A stretch of 26,669 nucleotides of DNA from a virus. The notes under the pieces were generated by a model. That model made no database searches. It had not been told where the DNA came from and saw nothing but the letters and a program-made list of their open reading frames with translations. How positions within the stretch are numbered: the stretch's first letter is position 1; every line of letters starts with the position of its first letter. Of the stretch, positions 4,342 to 25,116 are shown piece by piece. The stretch spans positions 1-26,669 of IMG/VR virus record IMGVR_UViG_3300042477_000491; one strand, given 5' to 3'. The translations under genes were made by a program, and so were the position numbers.

Positions 4342-6048
4342 ATGTCAAACATATTTCCAACCAGTTTAAATAATGTTCCTACTGTCGGCACTCCCAATGT
4401 AGTCTTGGGGACGCTTTATATTTCAGTCCCCAGCATCGTTCGATTTCCTTCCGTCTCATCTCCTGCTGTAGGGAACATTAATATTAACGGTTTTGGTATA
4501 GCCAACGATCAGCAAAAGTTCGGGATACCATCAGCATATTCAACTAGCCAAGTTCCGGAGATTCATAGTCAAGTTGAATTTCTGTTTCCTGAGTTTATAC
4601 AAGAAGAACACAGGGCATTTATCGCATTTATTCAAGAGTATTACAAATTCATTGAAAAAAGTGAAGGACCACTTCACTTCTTGCGCCGACTTTTGCATCT
4701 GCAAAATATAGACCAAACGGCAAGCGATTTGCTCGAATATTTTTATAGAGAGTACGCGCCGACATTTCCTCGGAATACGGTACTATCTCCTGCGATTATT
4801 TTCAAAAATATTAAACAATTTTATGTCGCAAAGGGTTCTGAAAAATCGTTTGAATTTCTATTTCGCGTTTTCTTCGGTACCGAGATAGAATTCTACTATC
4901 CTCGCCTTGATATACTTCGCTTTTCGGATGGTAAGTGGATTCAAAACAGAACCATTAGAGGTATCTTACTCCAAGGTGAGCCGTCAAAACTGATAGGAAA
5001 TAGAATCTTCGGCGTGCAAAGCAAAGCAAGCGCCTTTGTCGAGAACGTGTTAATTACACAAGAAGGTTCAATTACAGTTCACGAACTGTTTTTAAACGCA
5101 TCATCGATTGTGGGTAAATTTGAAATAGATGAAGTCGTAAAAGACGAAAGCGACCAAATAAAATGTCGAGTCTTACCGATGATTTCAGAAATAAAAATAA
5201 CCTCTCCAGGGCGTGGGTATGAAGCAGGTCAGGAGTTGAGCATAATTGGAGAGGGCTTTAACTGCAAAGCCAGGGTGGGAAAAGTAAGTGAAAGCGGCGG
5301 AATCCAATCTGTTGAAATCTATAAATTTGGCGCTGGTTATAAAGCTGAAACCACTTCAGTTGCATTTCCGCAATATGCAAATGTAATTGAGCAGGCTTCG
5401 GGGAAACCTACTTTTAATTCAACGGTAAAATACCCAGGATATTTTTTAAACTCGGATGGAACGTTTTCTGATCTTAAATATATTCAAGATAGTTATTATT
5501 ATCAGCAATTTAGTTATGTTATTCGATCGCCAGAAAGCCGAGACCGATACGAAAGTATTGTCAAGAACCTAGCACATCCGGCAGGATTTATTTTCTTTTC
5601 TGAAGTTGTACTGGAAACTAATATCGACGCATCTCCAAATATTCCAGAAGATTTAGACGGTAACATTACAACTAACTTTGAGCGATTTACTGATTATCGA
5701 TTCGATTTTAACGAATTTCATGTTCCGATAAATGAATATGTATTTCAAGAAGTTCCAACTTCTACTGAGGACACAGATGTTGAGTTCTTTGCCGAGGATG
5801 TTACATACGCCGAGCGCAACACGCCTATGGGACCGACTTGGAATGATTGGGAAAAATGGAAGACGGACTATCGCCCAACTCCAATATTCGGACAACCTAC
5901 TGATGAAATTATACAGCCTGGATACTATTCACTCTACGCAAACACTCCATTAAAGGCTTTTGCTGATGTAAAATTAGCAGATATAGTGTTTAATTCGTTT
6001 GCACAAATTGATCACTTACCTGAGACGACGATTACTCAGGAAGTTTAA
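4342..6048 (+). CDS. Virion structural protein in the gp7 slot (probable baseplate component)
   Basis: This 568-residue protein lies between gp6 and gp8, where T4 has gp7, but it is much shorter than T4 gp7 (about 1030 residues) and I see no clear sequence match to it. About residues 71-210 carry a pattern I know from marine T4-like phages: FLFPEFIQEEHRAFIAFIQEYYKFIE, then LRRLLHLQNIDQT, then FYVAKGSEKSFEFLFRVFFG, and FYYPRLDILRFSDGKWIQ. The middle (about 275-350) has glycine-rich strand repeats (SPGRGYEAGQELSIIG; FGAGYKAETTSVAF), a module also seen in gp8. The C-terminal 130 residues are acidic and aromatic. The role as a baseplate wedge component is inferred from position. Its 3' end overlaps the reverse-strand gene by 17 bp. 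Confidence 0.85.
   Translation: MSNIFPTSLNNVPTVGTPNVVLGTLYISVPSIVRFPSVSSPAVGNININGFGIANDQQKFGIPSAYSTSQVPEIHSQVEFLFPEFIQEEHRAFIAFIQEYYKFIEKSEGPLHFLRRLLHLQNIDQTASDLLEYFYREYAPTFPRNTVLSPAIIFKNIKQFYVAKGSEKSFEFLFRVFFGTEIEFYYPRLDILRFSDGKWIQNRTIRGILLQGEPSKLIGNRIFGVQSKASAFVENVLITQEGSITVHELFLNASSIVGKFEIDEVVKDESDQIKCRVLPMISEIKITSPGRGYEAGQELSIIGEGFNCKARVGKVSESGGIQSVEIYKFGAGYKAETTSVAFPQYANVIEQASGKPTFNSTVKYPGYFLNSDGTFSDLKYIQDSYYYQQFSYVIRSPESRDRYESIVKNLAHPAGFIFFSEVVLETNIDASPNIPEDLDGNITTNFERFTDYRFDFNEFHVPINEYVFQEVPTSTEDTDVEFFAEDVTYAERNTPMGPTWNDWEKWKTDYRPTPIFGQPTDEIIQPGYYSLYANTPLKAFADVKLADIVFNSFAQIDHLPETTITQEV
6014..6044. terminator. Hairpin in convergent overlap, possible two-way terminator
   Basis: ACTT-a-CCTGAG (6014-6024) pairs with CTCAGG-AAGT (6035-6044): ten base pairs with one bulged A around a 10-nt loop. 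On the plus strand it is followed by TTAATTTC, a poor U-tract. The loop contains the minus-strand stop codon (6032-6034), and the plus-strand stop lies just past the stem (6046-6048). The location where two transcription units meet head-on fits a bidirectional terminator. The weak U-tract is a reservation. Confidence 0.5.
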
Positions 6049-6598
6049 TTTCGGGATCATAATCCAATTGAATTTGTAACGCTCCCGCCTTCTCTATAAC
6101 GGCATCCAAAGATATTGGGGTGAAATTCCAGCAATCGACTCCCACGTCAAAGGATAAGCCATGTGGTGGCATATTACCGTGACTGTGACCAAAGAGGTGA
6201 ATTGACCCATGATTCGATCTCAGCCACGTTCGGTGTGCGTAATGGGAAAGAAAAAGCTGAACCTTTTTTCCTTTGTGTTGAGTTTTTAAAACGTGAACAT
6301 CTTTAATAAATTGAAATCTTTGACTTGCAGGTTCACGAATCGCTGAATCGTCATGATTTCCTTTTATCAGATAGAGTTTGCCGTTAAGTCTTTGCAACAC
6401 TCGATATAAATAGTCAGGGGAGCCAAACCCGACGTCCCCTAAGTGGTAAACGTGGTCATTTGGCTGAACGACGGAGTTCCAGTTTTCTATGAGAGTTTCA
6501 TTATGCTCGGCTAAAGATTCAAAAGGTCTGGCGCAATACTTAATTATGTTGCGATGGCCAAAATGAGTGTCTGCTGTAAAGAATATGCAACTTGTCAT
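6032..6598 (-). CDS. Calcineurin-like metallophosphoesterase
   Basis: The 188-residue product has all the metal-binding motifs of the calcineurin-like phosphoesterase superfamily in order: DTHFGH (D10, H12), GDVGFG (D55), GNHDD (N81, H82), SHYAH (H119) and GHSHG (H138, H140). These bind two metal ions and hydrolyse phosphomono- or diesters; the substrate here cannot be told. Small single-domain members like this are frequent in phages, often annotated simply as metallophosphatase. It is on the strand opposite to the structural operon, between the gp7-slot gene and gp8. That is typical of a 'moron' with its own regulation. There is no obvious Shine-Dalgarno before its ATG (6596-6598), and its 3' end runs 17 bp into the converging structural gene. 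Confidence 0.93.
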   Translation of the reverse strand: MTSCIFFTADTHFGHRNIIKYCARPFESLAEHNETLIENWNSVVQPNDHVYHLGDVGFGSPDYLYRVLQRLNGKLYLIKGNHDDSAIREPASQRFQFIKDVHVLKTQHKGKKVQLFLSHYAHRTWLRSNHGSIHLFGHSHGNMPPHGLSFDVGVDCWNFTPISLDAVIEKAGALQIQLDYDPEIKLPE

Positions 6599-16788: not shown

Positions 16789-19365
16789 ATGAGTTATATT
16801 CGCGGGGCATTGCCTTTTCTCATTTATAATCCGAATACACGAGATGATATCGTGCCCAACGGATCGTCATCAAGCTTTGAGCTTTCTCAGGAAGTTCCGG
16901 GTGGATATGAAAATAATGTTCAAGTTATTAGGCGTGAGTTTAAGTCTGACGTCTTAGTGCAGTCATGTTCATCAATTGCATTTGATGGGCTGTTAAGTCA
17001 AATAAGCTGTTCTGAATCTTCCATAGCAGCAGCACTTTCCTTAGTGCAAGTGGGAGATGTGGTAAGAGTTCAAGGCGCAACTAACGCAGCCAATAACGGT
17101 GACCTTTTAATTACAGCAGTCACGTACAACGGTCAAAATATTGTCATAACAGTTGATGATACTGGTTTAATTACTGAATCCGCAGGGTCTTTGGTAACTC
17201 TTACTCGTCGGTTTGTTGGGTCATGGGAGATTCTTGAGCCTGAAATTGACTATGTAATTGGCGGAACCGGCAATCAAGTTAATAAAATAATCACATTTTC
17301 AAAAATACCTCAAGAAACTGATGTTATTTACGTTATTCATCGAGGGGAAGCCACATACAACTTTGTTCCAACTGAAAAAACAGTAGGTCCTGAGCAACTT
17401 CAAGAAAACCTCAGAAATTTCAAAGTTGATATTTTTACAGGAGACGGTTCGTCAACTGATTTTAATTTGAGTCAGTTTGCAGTAAATGCCCGAACTCTTG
17501 AGCTTTCCGTCGATGGTTTCGTCAAATATGGTAGTGATGTTGACGCTGCATTCGTCGGAGATTTTGAGTTATTGAGCGACGGTACTACGATTCGTTTCGC
17601 GAGCCCGCCATCTAATGGTGCTAAGATTTATGTAAGACATTTAGGATTTAGTACAGTTTCTCGAAGGCAGGCGCTTTCCCCATCACAAATCGGTAGCGTA
17701 GCACCCGGATCAATCAATACGGTTCATCTAGCAAATAACGCGGTTACTTCTTCTAAAATAGCTGATGGCGCAGTAACTAATACTAAAATACAAGATGGAG
17801 CTGTTAGTGGTTCAAAGATTTTACTTAATAATAATGAATCTTTAAACTGGAAAAGTGCTGTATCTCCGTTTAGCGCAACATCAGTTTTACGATTAGATGC
17901 GACGAACAATGCAATCTTAAGAGCAGTTGGCGGCAAAGTATCCGTTAATTTGTCAGACACGAAGCTCATAGAATTTAGCTCAAGCTCCATTAAAGACGCA
18001 AGCGCATCGGGACAAGTTGATTTAGGCTCATCTGCAAATAAATTCAAAGACGCATTTCTTTCTGGTCAGATATCCTCGGCTACCGCTTCAGTAAGTGGAA
18101 ATGCAAGTGTGGGTGGCGATCTAAGCGTCACTGGAAATATTATCGTTGACGGTAACGTTGATGGCGTTGATGTGTCAGCACTTCAGGCTCAGGTGAACGC
18201 ACTTGCAGCTCTGGTTGCTCAAAATAGTGCAGCCGGAACTATTACACTTTGGGCTAGAGATACAGGGGCTCCAGCTGGATATCTTCTCTGTGATGGTGGT
18301 TCGTACTCAACATCAGTATATCCTAATTTATTTGCAGCCATAGGGTACACTTTTGGGGGGTCAGGTGCCACATTTAGTGTTCCAGATTTTAGAGGCCGTT
18401 TTCCGTTAGGTAAAGCATCTTCCGGTACGGGTTCTGGTTGGGGAACTGGTCCGTCAGCGAGAGGTGGCTCTTTAGACCACACTCACACCACACCAGCACA
18501 CACCCACGGACTGGCGAATCACGTCCACACAATTCCATCACATTACCATGCGATGATTTTTAATAATAGCACCTTAGCTATTAATCCTTCGGGCGATCAT
18601 CAAACGTCACTTAACCACGACCACGGCACATATACGACTCCTGCTGGAGAGGGTTTGCATGAGCATAATTTAAACATTGCAACCGGAGCAGTTACAAGTT
18701 CTAATGGAGCACATTCTCACGGGTTTTCACTGAGTGCAGCAACTGCGAGTCTCAATCACCGGCATTATATAAATTTTAATACATCAACAGAAAGTGCTAC
18801 TCACACGCATCCCGGTACGACGGACTCATCTGGAACTCATGACCATGATATCAGCGCATTACAGGGAACCGACGTATCAGACGGTAATAGCAATAGAGCG
18901 TTTTCAGCAACTAATACAAGTTTTACCCATACACGTAATACCTCCAGCGCGGGAAATCACACTCACTCATTTACAACAGGAAATAACTCCCAATTTCACG
19001 TTCATGCAGTTACAGGAAACAGTGATTTTACAGATGTAAGTCACGGCCACAGCATTACGGGTTCAATTAATGATGCAGGAGCCCACACACATTCAGTCGT
19101 AGGTCGAATATTCAATTACGAATCAAATCACCAACACACCGTAGATCTGCCTGAATTTACCGGATTATCGGGAAGTAACGGTACGCATAGACATTTTGCA
19201 GGTGATTTTTCTGGTGCGATAGGAAATGTTTCAAGTGGAAGTGATGGAAATGCTGGTTTTAATTCAGGTCCTCCTTCTCCAAACTCAACAGATTCTGGCG
19301 GTGCCTTGAATACTGGACAATCAAATCCTGCATTTCAGACGATTAACTTTATCATTAAAACGTAA
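16789..19365 (+). CDS. Tail fibre with phage tail-collar domain and His-rich tip
   Basis: The 858-residue protein has a modular fibre layout. The N-terminal part (1-285) has two beta modules, the second ending in RFASPPSNGAKIYVRHLGF. A stalk with TSSKIADGAVTNTKIQDGAVSGSKI follows (about 319-344), then a collagen-free beta/coiled region with NASVGGDLSVTGNI (about 438-451). The phage tail-collar domain lies at about 484-540 (TLWARDTGAPAGYLLCDGGS, FSVPDFRGRFPLG), as in T4 gp12. Residues about 564-803 hold 16 HxH motifs in a Ser/Thr/Gly-rich background, and the end is QTINFIIKT. Its position ahead of gp13 and its collar domain make it the likely short-tail-fibre (gp12) counterpart. The HxH ladder suggests a metal-threaded trimeric tip that contacts the receptor. 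Confidence 0.9.
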   Translation: MSYIRGALPFLIYNPNTRDDIVPNGSSSSFELSQEVPGGYENNVQVIRREFKSDVLVQSCSSIAFDGLLSQISCSESSIAAALSLVQVGDVVRVQGATNAANNGDLLITAVTYNGQNIVITVDDTGLITESAGSLVTLTRRFVGSWEILEPEIDYVIGGTGNQVNKIITFSKIPQETDVIYVIHRGEATYNFVPTEKTVGPEQLQENLRNFKVDIFTGDGSSTDFNLSQFAVNARTLELSVDGFVKYGSDVDAAFVGDFELLSDGTTIRFASPPSNGAKIYVRHLGFSTVSRRQALSPSQIGSVAPGSINTVHLANNAVTSSKIADGAVTNTKIQDGAVSGSKILLNNNESLNWKSAVSPFSATSVLRLDATNNAILRAVGGKVSVNLSDTKLIEFSSSSIKDASASGQVDLGSSANKFKDAFLSGQISSATASVSGNASVGGDLSVTGNIIVDGNVDGVDVSALQAQVNALAALVAQNSAAGTITLWARDTGAPAGYLLCDGGSYSTSVYPNLFAAIGYTFGGSGATFSVPDFRGRFPLGKASSGTGSGWGTGPSARGGSLDHTHTTPAHTHGLANHVHTIPSHYHAMIFNNSTLAINPSGDHQTSLNHDHGTYTTPAGEGLHEHNLNIATGAVTSSNGAHSHGFSLSAATASLNHRHYINFNTSTESATHTHPGTTDSSGTHDHDISALQGTDVSDGNSNRAFSATNTSFTHTRNTSSAGNHTHSFTTGNNSQFHVHAVTGNSDFTDVSHGHSITGSINDAGAHTHSVVGRIFNYESNHQHTVDLPEFTGLSGSNGTHRHFAGDFSGAIGNVSSGSDGNAGFNSGPPSPNSTDSGGALNTGQSNPAFQTINFIIKT
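18478..19197 (+). repeat. HxH ladder (16 motifs) in fibre tip
   Basis: Reading the translation in order, the HxH triplets are HTH, HTH, HVH, HYH, HDH, HEH, HSH, HRH, HTH, HDH, HTH, HVH, HGH, HTH, HQH and HRH, with one degenerate HTR between the tenth and eleventh. Spacing is about 6 residues for the first four, then about 9-30. The codons vary, so this is a protein-level repeat and not a DNA satellite. In the T4 gp37 tip, HxH pairs from three chains each hold one iron ion along the axis. Confidence 0.9.
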
Positions 19366-19373
19366 GGGGGCAT

Positions 19374-20276
19374 ATGTCGTATATCAGCAGAGGCAACCCT
19401 TACGGGTTTTTTGAAAAGCAAACATTTTCTCCAGATGGAATTCTCGACACTTTTACATTAAATTATCGTCCGGGTCAAAGTGGCGCTCTATTAGTAGTTT
19501 ATGGTGGTGCTATCCAAGAACCAGGGACTTCTTACATTTTAATAGACGGTGGCAGAAAGATAAAATTCACCTTCATACCAGAAGCTGGGCAACTTTTATA
19601 TGTACTATATCTAGGTAGAGAACTTTCGATACCCACAGTTTCGGGCAATTACCCTATTCATGAAACTGCGATAGGTGATGGACTCAATACACACTTTACT
19701 TTACCTGTAACACCAGCTGAAGCCGCTTTAATGGTTTACATAGACGGGATATTAAAAGGATTCGGCGAACATTGGACTCTTGTGGGTAACCAAGTTGCTT
19801 TCATAACTCCACCTTTAGTTGGCGCGAAAATTGATTTTTACATTCATGGCGTAGAAAGACTTGATGTAAGTACGGTTGACGACGGTTCGATTACAGCATC
19901 TAAGTTAAATCTTTTCTATCTACCGTTTACACCAAGTATCATTACCTTCAACGGAATGAATCACACAACTCCAAGTTTTACTGTTTCAAAATTTTTACCT
20001 CTCGGCAATTTTGTCAAATTGCGATTATTGTTTAGCACTACATTTTCTGACGTTCCTCATAATACTGTGCGGTTTACGTTGCCTCCAGGTTATGAAAATG
20101 ACGGCTCTGGGCTTGTATCAGGTAGTGTAACATTGTCTAATTCTAGCACTCTAGAAACAGGTATTTTGCGTTGGGGTAGTTTAAATTCAATTGATATTAA
20201 ACGTCAAAATAACATCGATTATACGGTAGGGGATGCGTGGACGTTTGAAATCGCTCTGGATTATGATTTGGGGTAA
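19374..20276 (+). CDS. Tail fibre protein with two stalk modules and a C-terminal knob
   Basis: The 300-residue product starts MSYISRGNPYG, similar to the MSYIRG of the gene before it. Two homologous beta modules follow: about 17-83 (DTFTLNYRPGQSGALLVVYG ... GQLLYVLYLGREL) and about 97-168 (THFTLPVTPAEAALMVYIDG ... GAKIDFYIHGVERL). Each has the T-F-x-L ... V-x-x-G ... P-x-x-G-x-x-I layout also found in the preceding fibre (about residues 217-285). A DGSITASKL stalk motif (about 174-182) leads to a 115-residue C-terminal beta domain, which could be a receptor-binding knob. It has the strongest Shine-Dalgarno in the area (AAGGGGG, 8 nt before ATG), unlike its neighbours, so it may be highly translated. 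Confidence 0.85.
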   Translation: MSYISRGNPYGFFEKQTFSPDGILDTFTLNYRPGQSGALLVVYGGAIQEPGTSYILIDGGRKIKFTFIPEAGQLLYVLYLGRELSIPTVSGNYPIHETAIGDGLNTHFTLPVTPAEAALMVYIDGILKGFGEHWTLVGNQVAFITPPLVGAKIDFYIHGVERLDVSTVDDGSITASKLNLFYLPFTPSIITFNGMNHTTPSFTVSKFLPLGNFVKLRLLFSTTFSDVPHNTVRFTLPPGYENDGSGLVSGSVTLSNSSTLETGILRWGSLNSIDIKRQNNIDYTVGDAWTFEIALDYDLG

Positions 20277-20472: not shown

Positions 20473-23400
20473 ATGGGCGCTACGCAAATTACCGGAACAC
20501 AGATAAGGGACGGCTCGGTACAAAGAAAAGACCTCGATGTTACTACGACGGGGCAGGCCGTTATAAGAAAAGTAATCGCAGGAAGTGGAATTAGTCTTTC
20601 TTGGACTGGCGTAGATGCGGGAACGGGGGATGTTACAATTAGCTCTACCGGAGGCGGTGGTGGAGGTTCGGGAATATCAACTCTTAACACTTTAACCGAT
20701 TCAATTCAGACATTTGCGGTCGGTAATTCTGGTACAGACTTTGCCATTTCTAGTTCTGGTTCAGTTCATACGTTTAACTTACCCGACGCTTCGGCTACGG
20801 CTAGAGGTTTAATTAGCACAGGAACGCAGGTAATTGCAGGTAGTAAAGACTTCACAGCAAATGCTAGACCTACAGTGAGTGGCAATTACTATCGATTTGG
20901 CGTAAACGCTTACCCGGACATAACCGCAAATACAACTCGATACAATAAGATTATTGAATTGGAAGGCTCTAATCCCTTAATATCAGCAGGTGTAACTGAT
21001 TCGGGATATAGAATAGCATTAGGAATCGAAAATTATTTCGATCATGTTGGATTCGCTGGAACTTTAAATGAAAGCACTGGTATTTGGGCTAGAGTCGGAA
21101 CAGACACGGCGTCGCCGACGGGTACGATCACTAATGTATATGCCGTAAAAGCTCAAATTCTTAAAGGAGCTAACGCAACACATACAAATGCTTTTGGGTT
21201 CTATGAATACAGCCAAGACTCAAACAGTAAAAACTATATGCAGAGTCCTCTAGGACTCAACACGACAAGTGTGTCTGCACAATTGCATGTGCAAACGAAT
21301 GGCGCTGCACAAAGGGGCATACTTGTTCGAGGTTCTGCTTCGCAAACAGAAAACCTTCTTGAAATTCAAAATAATAGCTCAACGACCCTTTTTGCTGTTG
21401 ACTCCTCCGGTACATTAACAGCCGGAACTATACCAGCAGCCAGAATAACGGGATTATCGACCGGAATTACGAGTTTAAACGCACTCACCGAAGTAACACA
21501 GACTTTTGCAACAGGCACAGCAGGGGCAGACTTCGCAATCTCCAGCTCTGGCTCAACGCATACATTTAATCTTCCCGACGCATCGGCGAGTAATAGAGGC
21601 TTAGTTACTACAGGATCCCAAACATTTGCCGGTGTTAAAACTTTTAACTCTGGAATAAGCATTGGTGCTGACTCTAATTTGGGCGGCTTTAAGCTCACTA
21701 ACGTAGGCACTCCCGTATCAGCTAATGATGTCGCCACGAAAGCATACGTAGACTCAATCACGTTCCCGATGGATGTTAAAAATTCCTGTAGAGTCGGAAC
21801 AACTGCCAATATTACCCTTTCTGGTACGCAAACCATTGACGGCATTTCGGTTGTTGCTGGTGATCGAGTATTAGTAAAAAATCAAACAACTGGATCACAA
21901 AACGGCATTTATGTTGTTGCTTCAGGCGCGTGGTCTCGCTCATCAGACGCAGACTCTAGCGCAAAGGTTACTGCTAATATGTTTGTGTTTGTTTCCGAAG
22001 GTTCAACCCAAGCAGATACTCAATGGGTTTTGACAACTAACGATACTATCACACTTGACACAACTGCTTTAAATTTTGTGCAATTTGGCTCTTCGCCTGG
22101 TACTGGCATTAATACACTGAATGGTTTGTCGACTACATCTCAAACGTTTGCGGTTGGAACATCAGGGACAGATTTTTCTATTTCCAGCTCTGGCTCAACG
22201 CATACATTTAATCTTCCTGACGCATCAGCGAGTAATAGAGGATTGATCACTACAGGAACCCAAACATTCGCCGGTACTAAAACGTTTAGTAGTAGTGATA
22301 CATTTTTCCAAAATATTAGAGTAGGCACTATTTATCCGAGAAGCGGGGAAAATAACATCACGCTACTAACAAGCAGCAGTGGTACTCTGTTTCTAAATGG
22401 TGGCACTCGTATTAACTTTGCATCCCAAAGTTTCGATTGGTCCATTAACGCCTTCACGCGCATGCAATTTACTAATAATAGCTATTTACAAATTGGAAAT
22501 CTAGGTGCTGCTCCCGGTGGAGGCTGGAATGCTCATTTACAAATAGCTTCACTTTCGGCAACAAATCGCGGTCTCGTAATTCAAGGCGCTTCGTCTCAAA
22601 GTGCAAATTTAATTGAGCTTCAAACTCATGCTTCAGCAACTGTCTTTTCTGTGAACCCATCCGGGGTTACGACAATGGCAGAAGCAGTATGTAATACTAT
22701 CAAAAATACTGGTAGCAATAATTTAGCTCTAACGACAACAAATGCACAAGATATTAACTTTAATACAAATAATACGGCAAGGTGGACTATAAGCAGTAGT
22801 GGTCTTCTGTATAATAATACCAGTACAGCAAACCTTTCAATTATTGGCGATGCAGTTGGGCATGATACTGCCAATTATGCACCACTCGGAGTTACGAGAT
22901 CAGATACTTTAAACGATTTAACTTACATAGCATTTACTCGCTCCGGTAATGCCGTCTGGGGAATTGGATACGGCACCGGAAACGAAAGAGTGCTATGCGG
23001 AGGAGTTGCTTCGGGTAAATCGTTTCACTCAAAGGATTTCACTTATAATCCTGGAATTAACAATGGCGAATTTAGAACAAAAGGTGACGCCTTTGCATTA
23101 AACATTAATGGCAGTGGAGATCGAAATACTTTTATCGATTTTTATAGTCGAAGTGGTGTTAATTATTATGATGCAAGAATAATTAGAAGACCAGGCGCAA
23201 CTGCGAATTTTGAGATAATCAATAACAGTGGTGGAATAACATTCTATACAAATGATCTATTACGATGGACTATTAATTCTTCTGGCACGTTGACGTCATC
23301 CTCTGGTATCGGAATTTCATGTGCTGCGATTCAATGCTCTTCGGTGGAAGCTACCGGAGGAGCAACATTCGGAGATGTTATCACTGTCAATAACTCGATT

Positions 23401-23856
23401 AGAGTCTACGGAATAAGAACGAGAAGTGGCTTTAGTGGGAGTTGGGGTAATAACCAGTTTAATATAGACTGGACTGGCAGTGCTCAATTATGGATTGATG
23501 GTACTAACGTCGGAACTATTCAAATTGTATCAGACTACAGAGTAAAGAAAAATGTAGTCACGCAAACCGAAAATGCAATTGATAGAATTAAACAAATCAG
23601 ACCAGTTACTTATCAAAGGGCAAATTACGGAGATATCTTTTTTGAGTCTGAGGAAATACGTGAAGGATTCGTCGCACACGAATTAGCAGAAATAATTCCA
23701 AGCGCCGTAGAAGGTGAAAAAGATGCACCAAATCAAATACAATCGTTGAAACTCGATGCGCTGTGTTCGGTTCTGGTAAAAGCAGTACAGGAATTAACCT
23801 CAAAGGTAGAGCAGTTAGAAGAGCGTTTAAGTGTACTAGAGGGTAATAACGAATAA
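20473..23856 (+). CDS. Long tail fibre with S74 (endosialidase-type) C-terminal chaperone
   Basis: This 1127-residue fibre begins with IRDGSVQRKDLDV (11-23) and a SGISLSWTG..AGTGDVTIS module (38-57), then a six-glycine hinge (60-65). Three 61-residue repeats follow at about 67-127, 331-391 and 545-605. Between the second and third repeats are VSANDVATKAYVDS and a GDRVLVKNQTTGSQNGIYVV module, both common in fibre stalks. The C-terminus is a peptidase S74 intramolecular chaperone: SDYRVKKNV at 1020-1028, PVTYQ, GFVAHELAEIIPSAV, LDALCSVLVKAVQEL, then a coiled coil. In this family the chaperone trimerises the fibre and cuts itself off just before the Ser (Ser1020 here) with a Lys five residues on (Lys1025), releasing about 108 residues. 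It has its own late promoter but no Shine-Dalgarno. Confidence 0.92.
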   Translation: MGATQITGTQIRDGSVQRKDLDVTTTGQAVIRKVIAGSGISLSWTGVDAGTGDVTISSTGGGGGGSGISTLNTLTDSIQTFAVGNSGTDFAISSSGSVHTFNLPDASATARGLISTGTQVIAGSKDFTANARPTVSGNYYRFGVNAYPDITANTTRYNKIIELEGSNPLISAGVTDSGYRIALGIENYFDHVGFAGTLNESTGIWARVGTDTASPTGTITNVYAVKAQILKGANATHTNAFGFYEYSQDSNSKNYMQSPLGLNTTSVSAQLHVQTNGAAQRGILVRGSASQTENLLEIQNNSSTTLFAVDSSGTLTAGTIPAARITGLSTGITSLNALTEVTQTFATGTAGADFAISSSGSTHTFNLPDASASNRGLVTTGSQTFAGVKTFNSGISIGADSNLGGFKLTNVGTPVSANDVATKAYVDSITFPMDVKNSCRVGTTANITLSGTQTIDGISVVAGDRVLVKNQTTGSQNGIYVVASGAWSRSSDADSSAKVTANMFVFVSEGSTQADTQWVLTTNDTITLDTTALNFVQFGSSPGTGINTLNGLSTTSQTFAVGTSGTDFSISSSGSTHTFNLPDASASNRGLITTGTQTFAGTKTFSSSDTFFQNIRVGTIYPRSGENNITLLTSSSGTLFLNGGTRINFASQSFDWSINAFTRMQFTNNSYLQIGNLGAAPGGGWNAHLQIASLSATNRGLVIQGASSQSANLIELQTHASATVFSVNPSGVTTMAEAVCNTIKNTGSNNLALTTTNAQDINFNTNNTARWTISSSGLLYNNTSTANLSIIGDAVGHDTANYAPLGVTRSDTLNDLTYIAFTRSGNAVWGIGYGTGNERVLCGGVASGKSFHSKDFTYNPGINNGEFRTKGDAFALNINGSGDRNTFIDFYSRSGVNYYDARIIRRPGATANFEIINNSGGITFYTNDLLRWTINSSGTLTSSSGIGISCAAIQCSSVEATGGATFGDVITVNNSIRVYGIRTRSGFSGSWGNNQFNIDWTGSAQLWIDGTNVGTIQIVSDYRVKKNVVTQTENAIDRIKQIRPVTYQRANYGDIFFESEEIREGFVAHELAEIIPSAVEGEKDAPNQIQSLKLDALCSVLVKAVQELTSKVEQLEERLSVLEGNNE
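20671..20853 (+). repeat. Fibre stalk repeat, copy 1 of 3 (183 bp)
   Basis: This copy encodes GISTLNTLTDSIQTFAVG through IAGSKDF, 61 residues. It is the most diverged of the three at DNA level. The shared core is TLN.L....QTFA.G..G.DF, ISSSGS.HTFNLPDASA and RGL..TG.Q..AG.K.F. Confidence 0.92.
21463..21645 (+). repeat. Fibre stalk repeat, copy 2 of 3 (183 bp)
   Basis: This copy encodes GITSLNALTEVTQTFATG through FAGVKTF, 61 residues. A roughly 60-nt stretch starting CCAGCTCTGGCTCAACGCAT (21542) matches copy 3 with only about three mismatches, so copies 2 and 3 share recent ancestry or have been homogenised. Confidence 0.92.
22105..22287 (+). repeat. Fibre stalk repeat, copy 3 of 3 (183 bp)
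   Basis: This copy encodes GINTLNGLSTTSQTFAVG through FAGTKTF, 61 residues, exactly the length of the other two. Its central part (from 22182) is nearly identical to copy 2. The starts of copies 2 and 3 are 642 nt apart, and the segment between them holds the KAYVDS and GDRVLVKNQ modules. Confidence 0.92.
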
Positions 23857-24576: not shown

Positions 24577-25116
24577 ATGCTTCAGCCCCCAGTGACAGAT
24601 GTTGTTTGTAAGGAAAGTGTGGGAATTTGGTCTCATCTGCATACATTTGCAATATCGACGATTGCTGTGTTTGCGCCATTAAAGAGCGTAATGTTTGCTC
24701 TTTTATTTCTCGTCTCAGTCGATGTTATCACCGGCATTTGGGCTGCAATTGTTACAAATAAACCTCTTACCTCTCGAAGACTTGCCCGTACAATAGTAAA
24801 AACGTTTGTTTATCTTACCACTATTTGCGTAGTTCATGTGGCAAACAAATACTTACTCTCGGCTGGAGAATTTAGTCTACCTTTGGACACGCTCATCGTC
24901 GGTTTTATTGCTCTCACTGAACTAAAATCAATACTTGAAAATCTGCAAAAAATTCAGAAACAACCTCTTCTTCAATTTGTAATTGATAGAATCGCGTCTG
25001 ATTCTTCAAGGGCGCTTGAGCAAATAGAACCCGAAGACAAACCTGAGATACAGCCTAAGACAAAGCCTAAGACACCAAAGGAGAAAAAAGGTGGCACTTC
25101 CAACCGACAGAAATAG
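24577..25116 (+). CDS. Holin (phage_holin_4_1-like)
   Basis: The 179-residue product has three likely membrane segments (about 37-59, 74-95, 101-116). The family-like signature is SVDVITGIWAAIVTNKPLTSRRLARTIVKTFVYL (47-80), with ALTELKSILENLQKI (112-126). This resembles the bacteriophage holin family of the toxin-secretion/phage-lysis type (DxxTGxxAA...K.L.S......K...Y......E..SI.EN). A charged, Pro/Lys-rich tail (151-179) is cytoplasmic by expectation. Holins form the inner-membrane lesions that let endolysin reach the wall and time lysis. A Shine-Dalgarno (GAGAGGA) lies 5-6 nt before ATG. Its last 26 nt overlap the start of gp13. Confidence 0.85.
   Translation: MLQPPVTDVVCKESVGIWSHLHTFAISTIAVFAPLKSVMFALLFLVSVDVITGIWAAIVTNKPLTSRRLARTIVKTFVYLTTICVVHVANKYLLSAGEFSLPLDTLIVGFIALTELKSILENLQKIQKQPLLQFVIDRIASDSSRALEQIEPEDKPEIQPKTKPKTPKEKKGGTSNRQK

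Follow-up and report, generated by a model that had tools for sequence, protein, structure and literature searches.

A tail fibre gene with 16 HxH motifs in a T4-like myovirus fragment, probably encoding a long gp37-type needle

The closest described systems to the fibre examined here are two proteins of bacteriophage T4. PDB 2XGF, the tip of the long tail fibre protein gp37, represents the first, and PDB 1OCY the second, gp12. Octahedral iron cages built from six histidines have been solved in gp37 (PMC6116203; PMC3004832) and also in R-pyocin fibres (PMC6116203). In gp12 the HxH motif is His445/447 (PMC3004832), and its cage holds Zn, possibly acquired during purification (PMC6116203). The gp37 tip contains seven HxH, as the first-pass annotation had stated; we counted them at residues 883, 915, 929, 966, 980, 989, and 998, and the gap at 932-965 is the region of receptor specificity (PMC9659904). 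Iron binding of the gp37 kind has been proposed, by inference, for fibres of the marine Alteromonas phage R22Y (six HxH; PMC11705849) and of Burkholderia phage E094 (seven HxH; PMC8174754).

The 858-aa fibre described here shares with gp37 a bipartite collar, an outgoing HxH arm, a head of 30-40 residues, a returning arm and a C-terminal collar strand. It carries 16 HxH (10 outgoing, 6 returning), whereas gp37 has seven (three out, four back), on arms about half as long and with no block of 7-residue spacing. With gp12 it shares the collar, which is its best match in both sequence and fold, and the position of the gene after those of the baseplate wedge. Yet the gp12 head is short and globular, with a single HxH and no long needle, and the 16 HxH seen here lie in long arms. 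The gene is thus gp12-like, as had been proposed, in its collar and its place on the baseplate side, but the layout of its tip is that of gp37. Among tips of the gp37 type this one is long, and similar or slightly longer ones occur in cultured cyanophages; since the fold and the metal site are both already known, it is not a new system.

The fibre gene, its collar and its neighbours

The window, that is, the whole stretch of 26,669 nucleotides analysed, is a fragment of a T4-like myovirus, and as a whole it gave no near DNA match in named phages. Baseplate wedge proteins are encoded upstream of the fibre genes. Among them, a gp6-like protein has its closest named relatives in Pelagibacter and Methylophilales phages and in cyanophages (35-38% identity), and a gp8-like protein in an Ochrobactrum phage and cyanophages (about 31% identity). 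Most of these named relatives belong to marine phages, which fits an aquatic phage without proving a marine one. A phosphoesterase-like gene (phrog_547) lies on the opposite strand amid the baseplate genes (6032-6598, -), and Rz-like spanin-type matches and a holin-type match (1354-2070 and 24577-25116) flank the structural block. The HxH fibre gene itself comprises the following features.

16789..19365, + strand: the HxH tail fibre gene, an ORF of 858 aa that matches the Pfam Collar family and PHROG families for tail fibre and short tail fibre
16789..18234, + strand: N-terminal shaft or attachment region, aa 1-482 (tblastn)
18235..18405, + strand: first part of the collar domain, aa 483-539 (PF07484; PDB gp12 matches 1ocy and 5iv5; AF2; Foldseek)
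18478..18549, + strand: collar-proximal block of four HxH at 7-residue spacing, aa 564-587, kept in the related contigs L002, L025 and L026
18616..18846, + strand: outgoing ladder of six HxH, aa 610-686, spacing 12-18 (histidine conservation against L002)
18847..18957, + strand: HxH-free tip of 37 residues, aa 687-723, in place and size like gp37 932-965 and the family gap
18958..19194, + strand: returning ladder of six HxH, aa 724-802, spacing 13-19 (arm-length symmetry)
19195..19320, + strand: returning Gly/Ser/Asn-rich stretch without HxH, aa 803-844, conserved together with the 7-spaced block in L002, L025 and L026
19321..19362, + strand: C-terminal strand SNPAFQTINFIIKT, modelled as completing the collar (pLDDT about 87; ending kept in relatives)

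Within the N-terminal region, aa 150-288 show similarity to proteins of Melnitz-1 and S-SRM01 that are fibres or baseplate-associated (tblastn). The Phage Tail Collar family PF07484 matches aa 483-539 with E=1.3e-18 and 67.1 bits, against a curated cut-off of 24; matches of the ORF to PHROG families (tail fibre, short tail fibre) are weaker. The gp12 collar, 1ocy, is recovered by phmmer (E=2.7e-05) and by Foldseek (probability 1.00), and profile comparison aligned the gp37 collar at 36% identity (E=8.6e-08). An AF2 monomer model of the C-terminal 385 residues, computed from an alignment with 17 relatives, is confident only in the collar (about aa 479-538) and in the last strand (pLDDT about 87). 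The protein ends in NFIIKT (aa 853-858), and its relatives end in a conserved NYIIKT. According to the model, then, the last strand belongs to the collar and the HxH tract is an insertion in a bipartite collar, which must run out and return. The tract had first been placed downstream of the collar; the collar does precede it, but the last strand, with NFIIKT, puts the tract within that domain.

The whole HxH tract falls below 50 pLDDT in the monomer, so that the model speaks neither for nor against a needle. A Foldseek match to 2xgf (220 columns, rmsd 54, probability 0.16) was rejected as evidence of one. By sequence, the tract itself has no significant match among solved structures, which counts against the needle reading, and no tblastn match in named phages.

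A second fibre gene, encoding 1127 aa with a C-terminal Peptidase_S74 intramolecular chaperone domain, lies at 20473-23856, so that genes for at least two kinds of fibre lie close together in this phage. Between the two, 19374-20276 encodes a 300-aa protein with a weak tail-fibre match that starts MSYIS, compared with MSYIR in the HxH fibre, perhaps a shared attachment domain.

Two arms around an HxH-free tip

Exactly 16 HxH are present in the ORF, all within aa 564-802. They start at aa 564, 571, 578, 585, 610, 624, 642, 657, 672, 684, 724, 737, 752, 766, 781, and 800. In nucleotides, they extend from 18478, the codon of the first motif histidine, to a last motif that starts at 19186, in agreement with the 16 motifs over about 240 residues (18478-19197) originally reported. 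When the residues of the 300-residue stretch were shuffled (2000 shuffles), HxH arose 3.7 times on average and at most 10 times; the 16 observed are therefore not a by-product of histidine content. The arms on either side of the HxH-free tip measure 153 and 135 residues, compared with 74 and 61 in gp37, which suggests a needle about twice as long. By its position, aa 687-723 would occupy the place of the gp37 receptor-binding head.

To place this layout in a family, collar proteins with HxH were gathered from viral contigs (protein and DNA-pattern searches) and from named phages. The census is non-random, one search having required three HxH at fixed spacing, so its counts show existence and not frequency. 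Two sequences with 19 HxH each (L117, L150) were left out as Arg/His-rich and probably spurious frames, and two without an evident collar (L113, 25 HxH; L135, 21 HxH) were excluded from the family. In each of the latter two, a single HxH stands apart and is followed by a run of near-perfect 7-residue repeats, with 24 HxH in L113 and 20 in L135. In another contig (L027, ORF from 2899), a 920-aa protein has tandem collar-like domains with a His-rich tract after each.

Counts in homologous fibres, proposed at the outset as a check, show how unusual the number is. The Synechococcus phages S-T4, Sf-FR1 and ACG-2014f share the collar, the two HxH arms and a tip gap of 37-39 residues, with 17, 15, and 11 HxH, respectively; they differ in their regular spacing (10 or about 13), in strict n / n-1 arms, and in showing little identity beyond the collar. 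A further cultured fibre, that of S-TIP37, has 11 HxH, another collar contig (L108) has 17, and other viral contigs have 17-25. In S-TIP37 the HxH fibre contains a 7-spaced run, and a 2OG-Fe(II) oxygenase is encoded two genes after it. Thus the tip is unusually long in that it has more than twice the seven motifs of gp37, and more than twice the six of R22Y, but it is not unique, given the cultured cyanophages. Reports of HxH numbers this high were not found in the literature searched, and may exist elsewhere. Among the closest known counterparts are the IMG/VR contigs L002 and L003, which carry the same gene, about 50% identical here, with 15 HxH, the 7-spaced block and the tip in the same place; they differ in lacking a counterpart of site 737 and in a slightly different ladder spacing.

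Across 25 distinct proteins that each have a single long gap, including gp37, the length from collar to gap follows that from gap to C-terminus (r=0.93), and gp37 lies on the line. When another interval was taken as the tip, the correlation became negative and the arm difference was 93 instead of 20 residues, a control that is partly built in, because shifting the tip transfers residues between arms. Proteins with all spacings of 9-20 were grouped at 60% identity into 19 clusters; in 16 of these the outgoing arm exceeds the returning arm by exactly one HxH, where 5000 random draws gave 3 such clusters on average and 9 at most. For instance, S-T4 has 9 + 8 HxH at spacing 10 and Sf-FR1 has 8 + 7 at spacing 13. 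The mean spacing of the two arms is likewise correlated (r=0.89, regular-ladder clusters). Between arms, the correlation is confined to arm length, motif number, and mean spacing; individual spacings were not significantly mirrored around the tip (p 0.11 and 0.30). The simplest reading of the extra outgoing motif is that levels are interleaved on one axis, out, back, out, back, with the last outgoing level beside the collar.

Some observations go against this regularity. The arms of the present fibre, 10 and 6, depart from the one-extra rule; they become 7 and 6 if the motif at 585 joins the ladder and three proximal levels are set apart, a split chosen after seeing the data. The gp37 split was also counted against the rule. 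In addition, motif number varies among close relatives (10 HxH in L025), which was counted against the needle reading. The Gly/Ser/Asn-rich return stretch at aa 803-844 may pair with the 7-spaced block. The arm test restricted to proteins with 7-residue spacing showed no correlation among seven usable proteins (L026 has two gaps, and its tip is probably misplaced), so this pairing is something we infer.

Facing and occupancy of the HxH sites

Against L002, the motif histidines are kept at 28 of 32 positions (88%), compared with 63 of 207 other tract residues (30%). This bears on the idea that the tract is a low-complexity repeat expansion whose histidines have no selected function. Its composition is indeed repeat-like, but the DNA of the tract holds no tandem repeat beyond a 29-base scrap, and the histidines are far better kept than their surroundings; we regard this explanation as very improbable.

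A hydrophobic residue stands at +4 after the first histidine in 12 of the 16 motifs, as in 5 of 7 in gp37 and in 66% of 651 pooled motifs, and the odd positions flanking +4 show no such preference. The two histidines (0 and +2) and the +4 residue would hence share one strand face, expected to form the core in gp37, and this lends indirect support to motif histidines that face inward. Alternatively, the fibre could be a histidine-rich surface with HxH turned outward, serving pH sensing, adhesion, or the binding of environmental metal. The tract is rich in Ser, Thr, Asn, and Gly, as such a surface might be; yet the same-face hydrophobic pattern is that of gp37, the arm symmetry includes gp37, and the solved precedents are all axial, so we hold outward-facing motifs to be unlikely. 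The suggestion of a metal-threaded, gp37-like needle, with which the first-pass annotation began, is on the contrary well supported at the level of sequence by arm symmetry, the one-extra rule, the same-face hydrophobic residue, and histidine conservation. We therefore consider it probable that the tail fibre is a homotrimer of the T4 gp37 type and that this region is its tip on the receptor side, threaded by metals at its HxH and with a needle about twice as long as that of gp37.

In such a tip each chain would leave the collar, run along the outgoing arm to a host-contacting head (aa 687-723), come back along the returning arm and finish the collar, and three chains together would form a six-stranded antiparallel needle. 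Each HxH, contributed by three chains, would make an octahedral cage of six histidines lying on the three-fold axis, likely with one metal per HxH, probably Fe(II) and possibly Zn. Levels from outgoing and returning motifs would take turns along the axis, except next to the collar, where only the outgoing 7-spaced block would contribute; up to 16 metal levels per needle would result.

How many of these levels are filled can be judged less firmly. Somewhat short of an even chance, in our view, is the case in which all 16 sites are occupied and 16 transition-metal ions stand in single file over about 30-40 nm, as estimated from strand geometry. This stack would have an undescribed two-module design, a one-arm 7-spaced block followed by an interleaved two-arm ladder. 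To our knowledge, such a stack would be more than twice the longest confirmed by structure. A gp37-like needle with metal in only some HxH, the 7-spaced block or the irregular sites being empty or having another role, is a tentative possibility that we take seriously. The block differs from the ladder in its spacing and in having no partner motifs on the return arm, and one histidine each at 642 and 672, together with the entire site 737, are unaligned in L002. The four block motifs, on the other hand, are perfectly kept in L002, and long 7-spaced HxH runs on the outgoing arm alone occur in many other collar fibres, which argues that the block is functional. In a gp37-type needle the metals would most likely bring the three chains into register as they fold and lend stiffness to the needle carrying the head, a role already proposed for the metals of the R-pyocin fibre (PMC6116203).

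Implications for phage fibres

If all sites are filled, the metal stack of such a tip would rank among the longest in any protein, and estimates of virion iron that assume seven ions per fibre would be too low for such phages. The consequences for marine iron or zinc raised with the first description of this fibre are speculation. Under the Ferrojan Horse idea, the iron in tail fibres would mimic siderophores. Vi01-like phages showed no dependence on tonB or feoB when tried on mutants, in one test (PMC10892097). For the family, the layout amounts to a testable fibre rule, with matched arms around an HxH-free tip and one more motif outward than returning. By this rule the receptor-contacting head could be located by sequence alone, in phages of unknown host.
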